Positions 15,814 through 39,332 of a stretch of DNA of 40,209 nucleotides are shown here, in pieces. Below the pieces are notes generated by a model. The model was given only the letters and a program-made list of their open reading frames with translations. It made no database searches and had not been told where the DNA came from. Made by a program: the position numbers and the translations under genes. Source of the DNA: Actinomycetota bacterium (GTDB lineage: Bacteria; Actinomycetota; Acidimicrobiia; Acidimicrobiales; Ilumatobacteraceae); NCBI GenBank assembly GCA_016870865.1, contig VGAC01000016.1, forward strand, positions 1-40,209. Direction: 5' to 3'. Every line of letters starts with the position of its first letter. Position 1 is the stretch's first letter.

Positions 15814-15909
15814 TGGCGGAGGTGGACGGGAATCGAACCCGCCGGACGAGGTTCGCTCGTCCCAACCGCTTTGAAGGCGGCGGAGCCCACCAGGCGCACG
15901 GACACCTCC
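15814..15909 (-). tRNA. selC: tRNA-Sec (anticodon TCA)
   Basis: This 96-nt gene including an encoded 3' CCA inserts selenocysteine at UGA codons. The anticodon loop CTTCAAA (anticodon TCA at 15874-15872) is closed by a 5-bp stem GCCGC/GCGGT. The 5' acceptor strand GGAGGTG pairs with CACCTCC. The T arm has loop TTCGATT on a GGCGGG/CCCGTC stem, so acceptor plus T stem total 13 bp, the hallmark of tRNA-Sec. The long variable arm GGACGAG/CTCGTCC has a 5-nt loop. Discriminator G, then CCA. Ordinary tRNA-Ser(TGA) is excluded by the anticodon. No selA, selB, selD or selenoprotein gene is seen in the window. Confidence 0.95.
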
Positions 15910-33347: not shown

Positions 33348-34625
33348 TTGAGCAAGCGTTTGAGCAAGAAGTGGCTGCCCTTGGCAGTCACGGTCGCTCT
33401 CGGTGTCGGTCTCGTTGCCTGTGGTGACGACGACAGTTCGAGCAGTGACGACACCACCGCAACCGCGGACACCACTGCCACGGCAGACACGACCGCGACC
33501 GCGGACACAACTGCGGCGCCCGTCGACTCGGCGGCTCCCGCCCCGAGCGCCGACTGGGCTGCAAACTTCACTCCGTGGGAGGGCTCGAAGCCCGTCGCCT
33601 GCGGACCCGAGGAAGGCCAGCCTCTCAAGGCTGCATGGGTGTACGTCGGTCCGATCAACGACGGTGGCTGGACACAGACACACGACGAAGGTCGCCAAGC
33701 GGTGCAAACACACTTCGGTGACAAAGTTGAAACCACATACAAGGAAAACGTGCCCGAGGGTGAGCAGGTTGGCCAGGTCATCGAAGACTTGATCGCCGAC
33801 GGCAACACCGTGATCTTCGGTACTTCGTTCGGATTCCAGGATGCGTTCGTCGCAGCGGCGGAAAAGCACCCCGACGTTTGCTTCGAATTCGCAACCGGCT
33901 TCAAGAGCGCACCGAACTTGTCGCAGTACTACGGCGCAGCCGAAGACACCGACTATCTCGCTGGCATGGCAGCAGGTGCTGCGACGAAGGTGGGCAAGAT
34001 CGGCTATCTCGCTTCGTTCGGGATTCCCGAAGTTGTTCGTGGTATCAACGCATTCACCTTGGGTGCGCGCGCTGTGAATCCTGATGCAACCGTGAAGATC
34101 GCGTGGGTCAACAGCTGGTTTGATCCGCCGGTCGAGCGCAAGCAGGCCGAAGCTCTCGTCACTGCCGGTGTCGATGTGCTGGGCATGAAGGGCGTCGACT
34201 CGCCGGCCACCGGGGATGCAGCCAAGGCTGCGGGCATTCCATGGGCCGGATACAACCGCGACAACAGCGCCAACTACGGCGACGTGTGGCTGACGGGCAC
34301 CCAGTACCACTGGGATGTCTACGAGATCCCGCGTCTGCAGCAGGTGCTCGATGGCACGTGGACTGCCGGCAACTACCACGGGACCATCGCCGATGGCTTC
34401 GTTGATATGTCAACCTACGGTGATCTCGTCTCGGAAGAGACGCGAACCAAGATCGAAGCAAAGAAGGCCGAACTGGCGGCAAACACCGGCGGTCAGTTCA
34501 CCGGTCCGATCATCGACAACTCGGGCAAGGAGCAGCTCGCTGCGGGCAAGCAACACACCTACGGAGAGTTGATGGCCATGCAGTACCTCGTCGAGGGAGT
34601 CGACGGAGAAATTCCGGCCGGCTGA
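33348..34625 (+). CDS. BMP/PnrA-family lipoprotein, ABC-importer substrate-binding protein
   Basis: This 425-residue lipoprotein has a type II signal with lipobox 'GVGLVACG', then an 18-bp-repeat-coded Asp/Thr/Ala linker (about residues 27-60). A basic-membrane-protein domain follows from 'LKAAWVYVGPINDGGWTQTH', with 'NTVIFGTSFGFQDAFVAAAE', 'KIGYLASFGIPEVVRGINAF' and 'SPATGDAAKAAGIPWAGYNR' as typical segments. PnrA/BmpA-like proteins usually bind purine nucleosides or related compounds. The start is TTG with GGGGAGGAAAAA directly upstream. A strong hairpin separates it from the ATPase gene. The ligand is inferred from family, not from pocket residues. Confidence 0.95.
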   Translation: MSKRLSKKWLPLAVTVALGVGLVACGDDDSSSSDDTTATADTTATADTTATADTTAAPVDSAAPAPSADWAANFTPWEGSKPVACGPEEGQPLKAAWVYVGPINDGGWTQTHDEGRQAVQTHFGDKVETTYKENVPEGEQVGQVIEDLIADGNTVIFGTSFGFQDAFVAAAEKHPDVCFEFATGFKSAPNLSQYYGAAEDTDYLAGMAAGAATKVGKIGYLASFGIPEVVRGINAFTLGARAVNPDATVKIAWVNSWFDPPVERKQAEALVTAGVDVLGMKGVDSPATGDAAKAAGIPWAGYNRDNSANYGDVWLTGTQYHWDVYEIPRLQQVLDGTWTAGNYHGTIADGFVDMSTYGDLVSEETRTKIEAKKAELAANTGGQFTGPIIDNSGKEQLAAGKQHTYGELMAMQYLVEGVDGEIPAG

Positions 34626-34655
34626 TTCTCAGCACAACACACCACATTTTGGTGG

Positions 34656-34683
34656 GAGGGGCGGGCCTTTGGGCCCGCCCCTC
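34656..34683 (+). terminator. Strong intercistronic hairpin after the binding-protein gene
   Basis: A 12-bp perfect GC-rich stem GAGGGGCGGGCC/GGCCCGCCCCTC with TTTG loop starts 31 bp after the binding-protein stop and ends 56 bp before the ATPase start. No immediate T-run follows; a TTTTT occurs about 15 nt later. It probably attenuates transcription or protects the 3' end so that binding protein exceeds the other components, a common arrangement in ABC-importer operons. Confidence 0.7.
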
Positions 34684-34739
34684 GGTGTTTCAACTAGTTT
34701 TTGCGTCGGATTCGAATTCGTCTGTGAGGGGCAAGAGAG

Positions 34740-36266
34740 ATGACGAACAGCGCGGTGCGCATGACGGGAGTCGTGAAACGATTTCCCGGGGTCATCGCCA
34801 ATGATGGTGTCAACTTCGAGGTGTTGAAGGGCGAGGTTCACGCCCTCTTGGGCGAGAACGGCGCGGGAAAGTCGACTCTGTCGAACATTCTCACGGGGCT
34901 GTACCGACCGGACGAAGGTTCGATCGACCTTGACGGTACGCCCGTGTCGTTCAGTTCACCGAAAGCGGCACTCGATGCGGGTATCGGCATGGTGCACCAA
35001 CACTTCCGACTGGTCGAACCTTTCACCGTCGCCGAAAACGTGATCCTCGGCAACCCCCAGACTGCCTTCGTGATCGACACCGATTCCACCGTCGAACGTG
35101 TCGCTGACTTGGCGAGGCGCTACGACATGGCGGTCGACCCGAACGCCAAGATCTGGCAGCTCAGCGTCGGCGAACAGCAGCGCGTCGAGATTCTCAAGGT
35201 GTTGTACCGCGGCGCCGGCGTGTTGATCCTCGACGAACCAACCGCGGTCCTCACACCCATCGAGGCCGAGGCTCTCTTCAAGACGTTGCGGGCAATGACG
35301 GCCGAAGGTCGCACCGTGATCTTCATTTCGCACAAACTCGACGAAGTGATGAGCGTCTCCGATCGCATCACGGTTCTTCGCGGCGGTCGCACGGTGGGAA
35401 CGGTCGCAACCAGGGATACCTCGACGCGCGAACTGGCCGGCATGATGGTGGGACGCAGTGTCGAGTTCTCGCGCGCCACACGACGCAACCCGGGTGATCC
35501 GGGCGACGTGGTGTTGTCACTCACCGACGTCAGCTGCGAGGACGACCGTGGGCGTGAGGCGCTGCACGGGATCGACGTCACCATTGGTCGGGGTGAAATC
35601 GTCGGGGTTGCCGGGGTCGCGGGCAATGGTCAGCGTGAACTGGCGGAGGTAATCGCCGGAATGCGCACTTTTACCTCCGGTCGCATCCTCGTTGGTGACA
35701 AACCCCTGGCGAACGGCCGCGCGCGGTCGGCGATCGCCGATGGTGTCGCACACGTACCCGAGGACCGCCTACACACCGGCCTTGCCGCAGGTCACTCGGT
35801 CGAAGACAACATCGCGCTGAAGAACTACCGCACGCCCCTGCTCTCACGGTTCGGAATGTTGAAGCGCAACGTCATCACGTCACAGGCCTGTGATCTGGTG
35901 ACGAGATACGACGTGAAGACCCCCGACACCGCGACACCGGTCCGACTGCTCTCGGGCGGCAACGTACAGAAGGTGTTGCTCGCCCGGGAGTTTTCGACGA
36001 AGCCGAAGGTTCTCATTGCAGCATCACCGACACGCGGTCTCGATGTCGGTGCCATCGAAACGGTTCGTCAGCGTCTCGTCGAGGCCGCCGACGATGGCGT
36101 GGGGATCCTGCTGATCTGTGAGGACCTGGAAGAAATCATGTCGCTCGCCGACCGCATAGTCGTCATGTACGAGGGACGCCTCGTCGCCGACATGCCCGCC
36201 GTCGGCGCGACACGCGAACAACTGGGCCTCCTCATGGGTGGTGCGACTCCGGAGACCTCACAATGA
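34740..36266 (+). CDS. ABC transporter ATP-binding protein, two-domain (nucleoside/simple-sugar type)
   Basis: This 508-residue protein has two ATPase domains. The first is complete: Walker A 'LLGENGAGKSTLSN', signature 'LSVGEQQRVEI' and Walker B 'VLILDEPTAVLTP'. In the second the Walker A is degenerate ('GVAGVAGNGQREL'), with 'LSGGNVQKVLLAREF' and 'IAASPTRGLDVGA', the usual condition in the BMP-linked NupA/RnsB class. It powers uptake with the two permeases downstream. The 3' end overlaps permease 1 by 4 bp (ATGA). ATG 34740 follows GAGGGGCAAGAGAG. Confidence 0.96.
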   Translation: MTNSAVRMTGVVKRFPGVIANDGVNFEVLKGEVHALLGENGAGKSTLSNILTGLYRPDEGSIDLDGTPVSFSSPKAALDAGIGMVHQHFRLVEPFTVAENVILGNPQTAFVIDTDSTVERVADLARRYDMAVDPNAKIWQLSVGEQQRVEILKVLYRGAGVLILDEPTAVLTPIEAEALFKTLRAMTAEGRTVIFISHKLDEVMSVSDRITVLRGGRTVGTVATRDTSTRELAGMMVGRSVEFSRATRRNPGDPGDVVLSLTDVSCEDDRGREALHGIDVTIGRGEIVGVAGVAGNGQRELAEVIAGMRTFTSGRILVGDKPLANGRARSAIADGVAHVPEDRLHTGLAAGHSVEDNIALKNYRTPLLSRFGMLKRNVITSQACDLVTRYDVKTPDTATPVRLLSGGNVQKVLLAREFSTKPKVLIAASPTRGLDVGAIETVRQRLVEAADDGVGILLICEDLEEIMSLADRIVVMYEGRLVADMPAVGATREQLGLLMGGATPETSQ

Positions 36267-37369
36267 GGTCACCTGTCCGGCTCGAGAGGCGGCTCACACA
36301 ACCGCGATGGCTCAACTCGGCGATCCCCGTTTTCTCGCTCATGGGCGCACTCGTCGTTGGCGCCGTCGTGCTGTTGGCGACGGGCAAGAACCCCCTGGAT
36401 GTGTACTGGCGCATCCTGGATCGCGGGTTCCTCTCCCAGAGGGCCGTCACCGGAACCCTGCGCACTGCCACTCCGCTCGCCTTCACCGGCATGTGCGCCG
36501 CGGCGGCTTTCCGGTTGGGCGTCATCAACATCGGTGGCGAGGGCCAGCTCTACATCGGTGCCGTTGGCGCCGCGCTCGTTGGTTTGTGGATCGGCGGTTC
36601 GGCCCCGGTTGGGATCACCATCATCGTCATGGTGCTCGCCGGCATGTTGTTCGGTGCCATGTACGCGTCGATCGTCGGCGTCCTGCGGTCGCAGTTCAAC
36701 ACGAACGAGATCATCACGTCTTTGATGATGAACTACGTCGCCGGAATCGTTCTCAATTATCTGATCTTCAATTCCCGCTCGTACTGGCGTGACCCGCGCT
36801 CGGTGGGCTTTCCGTCGGGCAAGCCTCTGGAGAAACGGACCTTCTGGCCCACTTACGAGGTCTTCAGCACGTCGGTGTCGTTCGGTTTTCTCCTCGCCAT
36901 CGCGGCGGCGATCGTGCTGTGGGTGGTCTACAAGCGCAGCCGCCTCGGTTTCGAGATCGGGATCATTGCCGACTCGCCTCGTGCTGCGCGCTACGTGGGG
37001 ATCCGTACCAAGTGGACGATCGTCGCCGTCACCGCCATGTCGGGTGCGCTCGCAGGACTCGGCGGCACGAGTCAGGTCGGCGACTTCGCGCACTACCTCG
37101 ACGCCAAAGGTCTGCAGTTGAACAATTTCGGCTACACCGGCATCGTCGTTGCCGCTCTGGCGCGGCTGAACCCGCTCGGTGCGATTCTCGTGGCCGTGTT
37201 GATGGGCGGACTCACGAACGCGGGTTACTCGCTGCAGGGACCCGACTTCCCCAGCGGTCTCGTCGGCACGCTCCAGGGTCTCATCCTCTTCACCGCAGTT
37301 GCCGGTGAGATCCTCACCAAATACCGGCTGCGATCGAACCGAAACGCGGTGAAGGCGGTGGCGGTGTGA
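36263..37369 (+). CDS. ABC transporter permease, BMP-type system, subunit 1
   Basis: This 368-residue inner-membrane permease has about nine to ten hydrophobic segments. Family segments include 'GVINIGGEGQLYIGAVGAAL', 'NEIITSLMMNYVAGIVLNYL' and 'ALAGLGGTSQVGDFAHYLD' with the adjoining 'LNNFGYTGIVVAALARLNPL'. This pattern matches YufP/NupB/RnsC-like nucleoside permeases. It overlaps the ATPase stop (ATGA) and the next permease (GTGA) by 4 bp each, so translation is coupled and a 1:1 permease ratio is expected. Confidence 0.95.
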   Translation: MRSPVRLERRLTQPRWLNSAIPVFSLMGALVVGAVVLLATGKNPLDVYWRILDRGFLSQRAVTGTLRTATPLAFTGMCAAAAFRLGVINIGGEGQLYIGAVGAALVGLWIGGSAPVGITIIVMVLAGMLFGAMYASIVGVLRSQFNTNEIITSLMMNYVAGIVLNYLIFNSRSYWRDPRSVGFPSGKPLEKRTFWPTYEVFSTSVSFGFLLAIAAAIVLWVVYKRSRLGFEIGIIADSPRAARYVGIRTKWTIVAVTAMSGALAGLGGTSQVGDFAHYLDAKGLQLNNFGYTGIVVAALARLNPLGAILVAVLMGGLTNAGYSLQGPDFPSGLVGTLQGLILFTAVAGEILTKYRLRSNRNAVKAVAV

Positions 37370-38325
37370 ACAGCAACCTCCTCGTCGTCATCGCGGCTTC
37401 GGCGATCTTCTATGGGACACCACTCTTCTTTGCCGCGCTGGGCGGCGTTTTCACCGAGCGAAGTGGCGTGTTGAACCTCGGCGTCGAAGGAATGATGTTG
37501 ATTGGTGGCGTCACCGCCGCGTGGTCGTCACTGCATGTGGGCGGCTCTGCATGGTTCACCGTCCTGGTTGCTCTTTGTATTGCCATGCTGGCCGGTTCGA
37601 TCCTTGCGTCACTCCACGCATTTCTTTGTGTCACCCTGAGGGCGAACCAGACGGTGGCGGGACTGTCGATCACGATCTTCGCCGGCGCGGTCGGTCTGTC
37701 GAGTTACTTCGCCAACATCTGGAAGGCCGCCCAAGATCCGGTTACGCGCCAGGTTCGCAAACTCGACGTCCTCGGCTTGGCTGATGCGCCAATCCTCGGA
37801 CCGCTGCTCTTCAACCACACGATTCTCACCTATCTCTCGTGGGTGATGTGTGCGGTTGCCTCGTGGTATCTCTTTCGCACGAAGATCGGTCTGCAAGTGC
37901 GCGCAGTCGGCGAATCACCCCAGACCGCCGATGCCATGGGCATCAGTGTCGTGAAGTACCGCTACATCCACACGATGCTCGGTGGCGCCCTCGCAGGACT
38001 CGGCGGCGCTTTCTACAGCCTCGCGATTGTGCCGACGTGGGTCGATGGCATGACAAAAGGTGCGGGCTGGATCGCCATCGCACTCGTCATTTTCGGCTTC
38101 TGGCGGCCGGGACTGACGCTCCTCGGTGCCTACCTGTTCGGTGCGTTGCAGTCGCTCGGCACCGTGCTCAAGGCACGCAGCTTCGACATTCCGGGCGATG
38201 TGCTCGACGCACTTCCGTTCGTGATGACGATCGTGGTACTCGTCCTCGTCTCCACTCGGTTCGCGCACAAGCGCATCGGAGCACCTGCCGCTCTCGGAGT
38301 GCCCTACGAGCGTGAAGAACGGTGA
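37366..38325 (+). CDS. ABC transporter permease, BMP-type system, subunit 2
   Basis: This 319-residue second permease of the importer matches the YufQ/NupC/RnsD class, with 'AALGGVFTERSGVLNLGVEG' at the N-terminus, 'LRANQTVAGLSITIFAGAVG' and 'GISVVKYRYIHTMLGGALAG' in the centre. It has eight to nine transmembrane segments. The GTG start overlaps the permease 1 stop (GTGA) and its own TGA overlaps the GTG of the Rieske gene, the last of three such 4-bp couplings in a row. Confidence 0.95.
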   Translation: MNSNLLVVIAASAIFYGTPLFFAALGGVFTERSGVLNLGVEGMMLIGGVTAAWSSLHVGGSAWFTVLVALCIAMLAGSILASLHAFLCVTLRANQTVAGLSITIFAGAVGLSSYFANIWKAAQDPVTRQVRKLDVLGLADAPILGPLLFNHTILTYLSWVMCAVASWYLFRTKIGLQVRAVGESPQTADAMGISVVKYRYIHTMLGGALAGLGGAFYSLAIVPTWVDGMTKGAGWIAIALVIFGFWRPGLTLLGAYLFGALQSLGTVLKARSFDIPGDVLDALPFVMTIVVLVLVSTRFAHKRIGAPAALGVPYEREER

Positions 38326-38333
38326 CGTCACCG
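38320..38333. promoter_or_regulatory. 14-bp perfect palindrome over the permease stop and Rieske start
   Basis: CGGTGACGTCACCG is a perfect 14-bp palindrome that contains both the GTG start (38322) of the oxygenase and the TGA stop (38323-38325) of the permease. A core TGACGTCA is present. It might be an operator or, less likely without a loop, a structured translation site. A few 14-bp palindromes are expected by chance per 40 kb, so its exact position is the only reason for notice. Confidence 0.3.
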
Positions 38334-39332
38334 AACTCGCTCACAAACACGTCGCCCGGTCTTCGGCGCGGTTGGTTGCCCATCGGCGGCCCCGACGAGT
38401 TCCCGCTCGACACTCCGATACGAGTCGAACTCCTGGGCGAGGGAGTGGTCGTGGTGCGCACCGGCGGCGGCGTCGTCGCATTTGCCGATCGTTGTTCGCA
38501 TCGCAATGCCCGGTTGAGTGACGGCCGCATCGTCGACGGGTGTCTCGAGTGCCCCTATCACGGGTGGCGGTTTGATACCAACGGCCGCTGTGCACACGTC
38601 CCGGCCCTGGGAGCCGGAGCAGCCGTTCCGCCGTCGGCCCACCTTGCGGGCTACCGCCTGCAGGAACGCTACGGACTCGTGTGGGTGGCCATCGAGGATC
38701 CAGTTGCCGATCTGCCCGAGGTTGCCGAATGGGACGACCCGACACTGCGCAGGATCTGGTTGCCCCCCGTGGTCATCAACGCCGCAGCGGGCCAGTTCGT
38801 CGACAACTTCCTCGACTTCGGCCACTTCCCGTTCGTTCATGCGGGCACCTTTGGTGCGGGTGAGGACGAGCACATCGGCGACTATGAGGTGAAACGTCGT
38901 GACGACGGTTGGGGTTTCGTCGTCGAGTATCCGCACATGATCCACAACAACGAAGACCCGCTCGTCAAGACGGGTGAACATCCGCTGGTTCAACCACGGA
39001 ACATGACGTACACATATGGTGCGCCGTTCACGATCGTTCTGCGACTCGAACTGCCGATCACCGGCATGGTGAACGTCCTCTTCACCGCACTGCAACCAAT
39101 GACAGAGTCAACCACGCGCGTCTACACGACGATGCTGCGCAACGACTGCGACACCGAGGAAGACACACGGCGTGCGATCGAGTACGAGTTCGACATCATG
39201 GCCGAGGACCTGGCGGTCATCGAGAAACTCTGGGACAAGGCGATTCCGTTCGACGTCGGCCAGGCCCACACGCGGGCCGATCGCAATACGGTGGAGTTCC
39301 GCCGCATCATGGCACGCCTCCTGTCGGCGTGA
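38322..39332 (+). CDS. Rieske non-haem iron oxygenase (VanA/pheophorbide-oxygenase-like)
   Basis: This 336-residue oxygenase alpha-subunit-like protein has a Rieske [2Fe-2S] centre from Cys58-x-His60 ('CSHRNARLSDG') and Cys77-x-x-His80 ('CPYHGWRF'). The mononuclear iron site is in 'VDNFLDFGHFPFVHAG' with His168 and His173. The size and motif spacing fit O- or N-demethylase/hydroxylase types rather than a classical ring dioxygenase. No reductase or ferredoxin partner is in the window. Its GTG start overlaps the permease stop, so it is translated with a BMP-type importer, which suggests that the imported compound or a derivative is its substrate (inference). Confidence 0.93.
   Translation: MTSPNSLTNTSPGLRRGWLPIGGPDEFPLDTPIRVELLGEGVVVVRTGGGVVAFADRCSHRNARLSDGRIVDGCLECPYHGWRFDTNGRCAHVPALGAGAAVPPSAHLAGYRLQERYGLVWVAIEDPVADLPEVAEWDDPTLRRIWLPPVVINAAAGQFVDNFLDFGHFPFVHAGTFGAGEDEHIGDYEVKRRDDGWGFVVEYPHMIHNNEDPLVKTGEHPLVQPRNMTYTYGAPFTIVLRLELPITGMVNVLFTALQPMTESTTRVYTTMLRNDCDTEEDTRRAIEYEFDIMAEDLAVIEKLWDKAIPFDVGQAHTRADRNTVEFRRIMARLLSA

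Follow-up and report, generated by a model that had tools for sequence, protein, structure and literature searches.

An operon joining an AtzT-type importer to a Rieske oxygenase in Ilumatobacteraceae, and its probable role in the uptake and oxygenation of purine bases

Introduction

Why should an importer of the BMP family end, within one operon, in a gene for a Rieske non-haem iron oxygenase (RO), and which compound would the two have in common? The question is raised by a stretch of 40,209 nucleotides (the window), positions 1 to 40,209 of contig VGAC01000016.1 (assembly GCA_016870865.1) from an actinobacterium of the Ilumatobacteraceae. It is answered here from gene order, conservation, homology, conservation of the binding pocket and the purine genes of relatives, from which we infer ligand, reaction and electron partner. 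Import of a purine base followed by its oxygenation is a likely function of the operon; the whole statement, in which the oxygenase demethylates an N-methylated purine base oxidatively, is given a rough probability of 0.45.

Organization of the operon

The unit comprises the following features.

33348-34625, + strand: BMP-family lipoprotein gene encoding an AtzT-type solute-binding protein (open reading frame, ORF; Pfam Bmp 6.3e-43)
34656-34683, + strand: 12-bp GC-rich hairpin between the binding-protein and ATPase genes, with no typical U tract
34740-36266, + strand: two-domain sugar/nucleoside-type ABC ATPase gene (ATG start; Pfam ABC_tran in two stretches)
36263-37369, + strand: permease 1 gene (ATG start; Pfam BPD_transp_2; ATGA overlap with the ATPase gene)
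37366-38325, + strand: permease 2 gene (GTG start; Pfam BPD_transp_2; GTGA overlap with the permease 1 gene)
38322-39332, + strand: RO gene of the VanA_C type (GTG start; GTGA overlap with the permease 2 gene; Pfam Rieske 2.4e-23, VanA_C 1.6e-22)

A sequence-only reading of this DNA had described a five-gene unit with three 4-bp overlaps, and ORFs, Pfam matches and gene order agree with it on both counts. It had also called the importer and oxygenase translationally fused, which is not what the genes show: the unit is an operon and not a fusion, because the genes are separate and overlapping and because 114 nt with a hairpin lie between the binding-protein gene, which stands outside the overlapping chain, and the ATPase gene. 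This spacer folds with a z-score of -4.13 (none of 200 shuffles was equally stable), its hairpin is absent from the output of the terminator scan, and a role in mRNA processing or attenuation may be suggested for it. A promoter scan found no promoter. Read by eye, the binding-protein gene has a TTG start with GGGGAGG immediately 5' of it, and its product carries a lipoprotein-like signal (LVAC). The best NCBIfam model for the ATPase is NF047930, at 490.9 bits and under the cut-off of 670.

Binding protein and likely ligand

The binding protein was placed by ranking its relatives on sequence and on fold. Among solved BMP proteins it is nearest to AtzT (1.3e-76) and 3s99 (4.8e-72), not to PnrA/BmpD; the next solved relative stands at 1.1e-16, a gap of about 55 orders of magnitude, and the PnrA chain at 2.6e-09. 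Identity to AtzT is 41% over 334 alignment columns, and the structural model (mean pLDDT 77) has AtzT and 3s99 as its closest folds, with TMt 0.91 to AtzT versus 0.75-0.79 to the PnrA/BmpD folds. The PnrA/BmpA nucleoside-type assignment proposed from the sequence alone therefore gives way to one with the free-base binders.

As given in the excerpts of PMC6834077, AtzT binds guanine at 110 nM, adenine at 2.5 uM and also 2-hydroxyatrazine at 2.2 uM, 3s99 was deposited with adenine, and the AtzT pocket consists of Y45, S97, F98, T139, E165, N169, W194, N218 and N220. The residues of that excerpted list map, in the same order, to W108, S160, F161, D202, E228, G232, W257, G282 and D284 of the window protein, so that four of the nine are identical, Y45 is conservatively replaced by W108 and N220 becomes D284, and T139, N169 and N218 differ. 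The N220 position is Asp in the aligned 3s99 as well. Six of these positions (W108, S160, F161, E228, W257 and D284) are invariant in 10/10 rows, window included.

The same genome has a second BMP importer, on contig C20 and about 30% identical to that of the operon, which adjoins ORFs resembling by eye thymidine phosphorylase and adenosine deaminase, a setting that suits a nucleoside system. A nucleoside was dropped as ligand of the operon on account of the binding protein's rank among base binders and of this other importer in the genome.

The Rieske oxygenase

The terminal gene encodes a predicted VanA_C-type oxygenase with Rieske and catalytic domains. Its putative ligand residues, C58/H60/C77/H80, D165 and H168/H173/D296, are invariant in 15/15 RO rows, the roles being those usual for such positions in the family. 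NdmA (4.9e-42), SxtDIOX, SxtT and NdmB are its best solved sequence matches, and the closest folds to its model are SxtT/GxtA and NdmA/NdmB (mean pLDDT 83, residues 166-183, including H168 and H173, being below 50).

Phylogenetically the enzyme belongs to a clade of its own, which held 15 rows with a support of 100/99 in a first tree, apart from HpxD and NdmA, and 17 rows (L128 and L130 added) with a support of 99/97 in a second. The HpxD branch moved between the two, grouping with NdmA at 99/95 and then lying on the side of the window's enzyme at 84/73. Members of the clade are linked to the importer wherever their contig extends far enough.

Linkage of importer and oxygenase in relatives

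The oxygenase was searched for in 100 genomes, its own and those of relatives, and a profile scan of the genome contigs with the 15-row alignment kept 80 loci of 111 relatives. The 33 closest rows are the window and loci L102-L132, L108 being counted twice. Statements on genes of relatives rest on tblastn and HMM matches, as length-based gene calling picks some wrong frames, and the rows are partly non-independent (L109 shares its isolate with L122, as L112 does with L124, and many contigs belong to the G genomes).

At an identity of at least 51%, window included, the importer is found whole or in part upstream of the RO gene in 28/31 rows, the other three being limited by the contig end. At about this identity or above, the oxygenase stands behind the importer, on every contig that is long enough, either directly or with a deaminase gene or a first RO in between. 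It follows permease 2 directly in 24/33 rows, 20 of which have the same 4-bp overlap (the exceptions are L108, L122, L124 and L129). In a further 6/33 it comes after a reversed adenine deaminase gene, with the importer further upstream in four and the contig ending in L109 and L112; in L125 the contig ends at the RO gene. The genes 3' of the RO gene vary, being a DNA polymerase gene in the window and its three nearest relatives and a reversed prephenate dehydratase gene in others. Adjacency of importer and oxygenase is thus more than chance, because the overlap is kept across rows while the downstream genes differ. The adjacency in relatives that the sequence-only reading had proposed to check mostly held, with one possible exception (G021, below). 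Within the window's genus, no close RO was found in G006 and G009 (76% and 80% complete) and only a fragment in G007.

BMP matches at E 1e-20 occur in 44/100 genomes. Three close importers (L188, L189 and L190) lie on contigs that end at or before permease 2, and the more distant importers, with BMP proteins of 38-51% (L193, L194, L197-L201, L203 and L205), showed no RO in the stretch examined. Coupling to an oxygenase is a property of one importer clade, plus separate cases: in L213/L214 an RO distant from that of the window, and an amidohydrolase, come after the genes for BMP protein, ATPase and permease, and in L083 an RO of 37% and a BMP gene of 40% are 3.4 kb apart. At L193:5326-6838, inositol-monophosphatase-like and OGG-like (8-oxoguanine DNA glycosylase-like) genes replace the RO behind a BMP importer of 51%.

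Ilumatobacteraceae, Acidimicrobiaceae or acIV appear in the titles of some of the closest loci. Five other MAG records (L107, L118, L120, L125 and L132) are titled Bifidobacterium breve and one (L103) Acidobacteria, despite an actinobacterial operon type and RO identities of 55-82%; these titles look wrong. Separately, Rieske, Fer2 and NAD-binding domains are all matched within one ORF (L065:5131-7863), which ends about 0.6 kb away from the G019 RO gene on the other strand and is a candidate oxygenase-reductase gene, or else two genes in one frame call.

Purine genes around the oxygenase in relatives

An adenine deaminase gene adjoins the oxygenase in 9/31 loci (L102-L132). The one copy tested, in L054 (the contig of L108), passes TIGR01178 (505 versus 472.5), and that of L130 is a truncated fragment recognized as a Pfam amidohydrolase only. 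Additionally, NdmA-like oxygenases occur near those of the window's group in L068, L076, L151, L152 and L138; the row of L151 reads NdmA-like RO, adenosine deaminase (over the TIGR01430 cut-off), window-group RO and a relative of adenine deaminase (below cut-off). Guanine deaminase exceeds the TIGR02967 cut-off in 6/41 genomes, all six in the genus g1 (sister species), and in 5/6 a second BMP paralogue shares its contig. In G004 and G008 this pair is found on the contig of a window-type operon, with about 4.6 and 2.6 kb between the end of the deaminase and the start of the operon's BMP gene. In the sister species an orphan second BMP protein is also seen at L058:90-2636, L062:3-3167, L183, L184 and L187, next to guanine deaminase and the alpha subunit of a ring-hydroxylating oxygenase (PF00848). 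The g1 adenine deaminase was considered as part of a xanthine dehydrogenase (XDH) cluster and dropped, since its neighbours in L229/L230 look by eye like phosphate-transport genes and the molybdenum hydroxylase 8-10 kb away is best matched as glyceraldehyde dehydrogenase.

A sister RO clade (L158-L181) has one or two amidohydrolases like those of L087 in 21/24 loci, importer parts in 13/24 and HyuA (hydantoinase A) in 4/24. For the one amidohydrolase copy tested, the top-scoring models are 5'-deoxyadenosine deaminase and TRZ/ATZ hydrolase, neither of which reaches its cut-off. This clade probably marks another N-heterocycle catabolic island of Acidimicrobiia.

AtzT-type importers on plasmids

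In a plasmid survey the binding protein matched 559 records; seven were opened by choice from 60 listed (H41, H42, H43, H54, H68, H73 and H61), together with a caffeine plasmid reached through the oxygenase, so that the sample is small and non-random (L261 is unannotated). Among the seven annotated regions, xdhABC adjoins an AtzT-type importer in three (L258-L260), one of which also carries guanine deaminase, 8-oxoguanine deaminase and PuuD; urea/allophanate genes occur in two and an annotated RO in two. An Acinetobacter plasmid (L257) has a full AtzT-type importer with two HpxD-type oxygenases, 53% and 56% identical to annotated HpxD, beside HpxO, allantoicase and uraH in an annotated purine-catabolism cluster. 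On the caffeine plasmid of Paraburkholderia caffeinilytica (L253), NdmA and a BMP protein 36% identical to that of the window lie about 6.5 kb apart, and formaldehyde genes follow at a greater distance.

Purine enzymes of the window's own genome

Two molybdenum hydroxylases encoded on contig C7 (L217:203-9473) are of XDH type, passing TIGR03311 (selenium-dependent xanthine dehydrogenase; 843.3 versus 830.45) and TIGR03196 (pucD; 816.5 versus 783.65), and stand with an FAD subunit and a carbamoylputrescine-amidase/nitrilase-like gene below their cut-offs, which suggests a purine or related oxidation cluster. Those of C13 and C12 score below the XDH cut-offs. An oxygenase that merely replaces a missing xanthine dehydrogenase was dropped for this genome, as the two C7 proteins pass. 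Uricase was over cut-off in 0/61 genomes, with one match under the threshold in G012, and OHCU decarboxylase in 0/41, HpxO-type urate oxidation not being searched, and a urate-allantoin route was dropped on these grounds.

Proposed function and alternatives

In the mechanism proposed, W108 and W257 of the lipoprotein would sandwich a free purine base, with E228, S160 and F161 also holding it, and the ATPase and two permeases would import it. The co-translated oxygenase, with electrons from an unlinked partner, would then attack the base with O2; were the base N-methylated, oxidative demethylation would yield formaldehyde and a canonical base, which may be salvaged, deaminated or passed to the cell's own molybdenum XDH-type enzymes. 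The idea of uptake followed by Rieske chemistry, put forward from the sequence alone, is upheld for a purine-like compound; for the methoxy-aromatics it also named, nothing was seen pointing there.

For the window's own genome we tentatively prefer demethylation to hydroxylation; that the substrate is a purine base is better supported. The lean rests on the presence of the XDH-type genes, by which oxopurine hydroxylation need not fall to the RO, and on the uricase and OHCU decarboxylase searches, which gave nothing over cut-off and thus revealed no outlet for urate. Several observations weigh against it. In both trees the oxygenase groups neither with NdmA/NdmB nor with HpxD, and the first part of this speaks against a demethylase. 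N282 and F286 are substrate-selecting residues of NdmA; at the position of N282, placed from aligned wild-type and mutant NdmA chains, the window's enzyme has E290, and the residue is Glu in 13/15 clade rows, Gln in the L054/L056 paralogues and Asn in HpxD. The deaminases of relatives fit hydroxylation equally well as demethylation, and in the window's own genome adenine deaminase gave no match and guanine deaminase none over cut-off. No formaldehyde enzyme was among the neighbour proteins tested with Pfam, unlike on the caffeine plasmid. A Fer2 search of the genome gave four matches, one in a succinate dehydrogenase locus (by eye) and three near molybdenum-hydroxylase matches, with no VanB/NdmD-type reductase among them, so the electrons probably come from an unlinked partner; this search can miss some proteins, as with the Fe-S domain implied for L217:1169-3784. 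Finally, in G021 (L191; BMP 60%) permease 2 borders the end of the contig, and because this genome is 99% complete and its best RO reaches only 37%, a close oxygenase may be truly missing there despite a close importer.

The alternative that survives best is a molybdenum-independent ring hydroxylation in the role of HpxD, with the imported base, deaminated first in some relatives, converted to xanthine or urate by the oxygenase; it is possible, though we would not call it probable. The Acinetobacter plasmid couples the same kind of importer to HpxD-type enzymes, and the three importers adjoining xdhABC suggest that an RO may fill the XDH slot. Moreover, the two oxygenases and adenine deaminase of L108 would match the three steps from adenine to urate, hpxDE act in hypoxanthine and xanthine oxidation according to the excerpts of PMC7373994, and the bit scores of the window's enzyme with HpxD (155 and 144) are as high as those with NdmA-like and NdmB-like proteins (151 and 140). 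Set against this are the XDH-type proteins of the genome, the uricase and OHCU decarboxylase searches with nothing over cut-off (HpxO not being among the enzymes searched), the position of the oxygenase outside the HpxD clade and the gene 3' of it, which is no reductase.

That the ligand is another purine-shaped N-heterocycle (an s-triazine, an alkylated pyrimidine or a cytokinin-like compound), dealkylated or hydroxylated by the oxygenase, is unlikely: the 2-hydroxyatrazine affinity excerpted above, the amidohydrolases and HyuA of the sister clade with its TRZ/ATZ-hydrolase-like copy below cut-off, and the two BMP loci with urea/allophanate genes would agree with it, whereas the importer-linked clade has an adenine or guanine deaminase context and the six purine-pocket positions are invariant. 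Very unlikely is an oxygenase unrelated to the transported compound and kept at the operon's tail solely for expression, since 28/31 rows are importer-linked, with the others limited by contig ends and with changing downstream genes, and other RO lineages are coupled to BMP importers too (L213/L214, Acinetobacter), against which stand the importer of G021 that may do without a close RO, the other neighbours of more distant BMP importers, L130 and L131 (RO 47-48%), whose 4.0 and 1.9 kb of upstream sequence match no importer gene, and the loci outside the clade (L133-L157, RO 37-46%) with importer parts in 0/25, 14 of them having at least 6 kb upstream (tblastn with the window's proteins, which a diverged importer could escape).

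Flanking genes

The operon is preceded by genes for a tRNA-Ser and a LysM protein on the opposite strand and followed by one of the DNA polymerase III delta type. Elsewhere in the window ARAGORN places a selenocysteine tRNA at 15814-15909 (- strand; Rfam RF01852, 64.7 bits) in this genome of 1.95 Mb; an NCBIfam search at 1e-10 gave no match to selenocysteine machinery in the ten ORFs examined from the 11-26 kb region of the window.

Comparison with known systems and significance

From the guanine site of the AtzT/3s99 importers (PF02608) the window protein keeps the aromatic sandwich, the Ser/Phe pair and the Glu, and it differs in having D, G and G for T139, N169 and N218, in being a lipoprotein and in the oxygenase of its operon. 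PnrA/BmpD belong to the same Pfam family and are much farther than AtzT in sequence and fold. HpxD, the Rieske xanthine hydroxylase of purine catabolism, is about 31% identical to the window's oxygenase, and HpxD-type enzymes also adjoin an AtzT-type importer in Acinetobacter; the window's enzyme stands in a separate clade, its importer is co-translated, and Pantoea has a PDR/VanB reductase behind the oxygenase, unlike the window's unit. NdmA/NdmB provide its best solved match, with a BMP protein near NdmA on the caffeine plasmid, and are separated from it by an identity of about 30%, a different clade, the N282 to E290 change and the want of an NdmD in the Fer2 search of the genome. VanA vanillate O-demethylase has the VanA_C domain in common with it, whereas the unit is without a VanB-type gene and no aromatic-catabolism genes were among the neighbours tested.

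HpxD-type Rieske oxidation of purines, N-demethylation of methylxanthines by NdmA/B, the parts and the general logic are already known, so the earlier impression of a pathway not described before holds for one part only. The RO lineage, and its linkage in an operon to a purine-base importer, appear to be undescribed as far as the open-licence literature goes, in which no paper was found on an importer-Rieske-purine operon, subscription journals lying outside the search. That the lineage serves the salvage of modified bases (e.g., N-methylated and RNA-derived), turned into canonical ones directly after uptake by its own transporter, in small-genome freshwater actinobacteria (acIV/Ilumatobacteraceae-like) is a doubtful suggestion.

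The analysis proposes, for a conserved operon of freshwater actinobacteria that are mostly uncultured, a function open to testing. BMP importers of the AtzT or a related type are coupled to three separate Rieske lineages (that of the window, the HpxD-type enzymes of Acinetobacter and that of L213/L214), and the purine-handling Rieske enzymes may extend further than HpxD and the demethylases of caffeine. Were the substrate a methylated base, the operon would be a route dedicated to taking up and converting the modified nucleobases of lake water.

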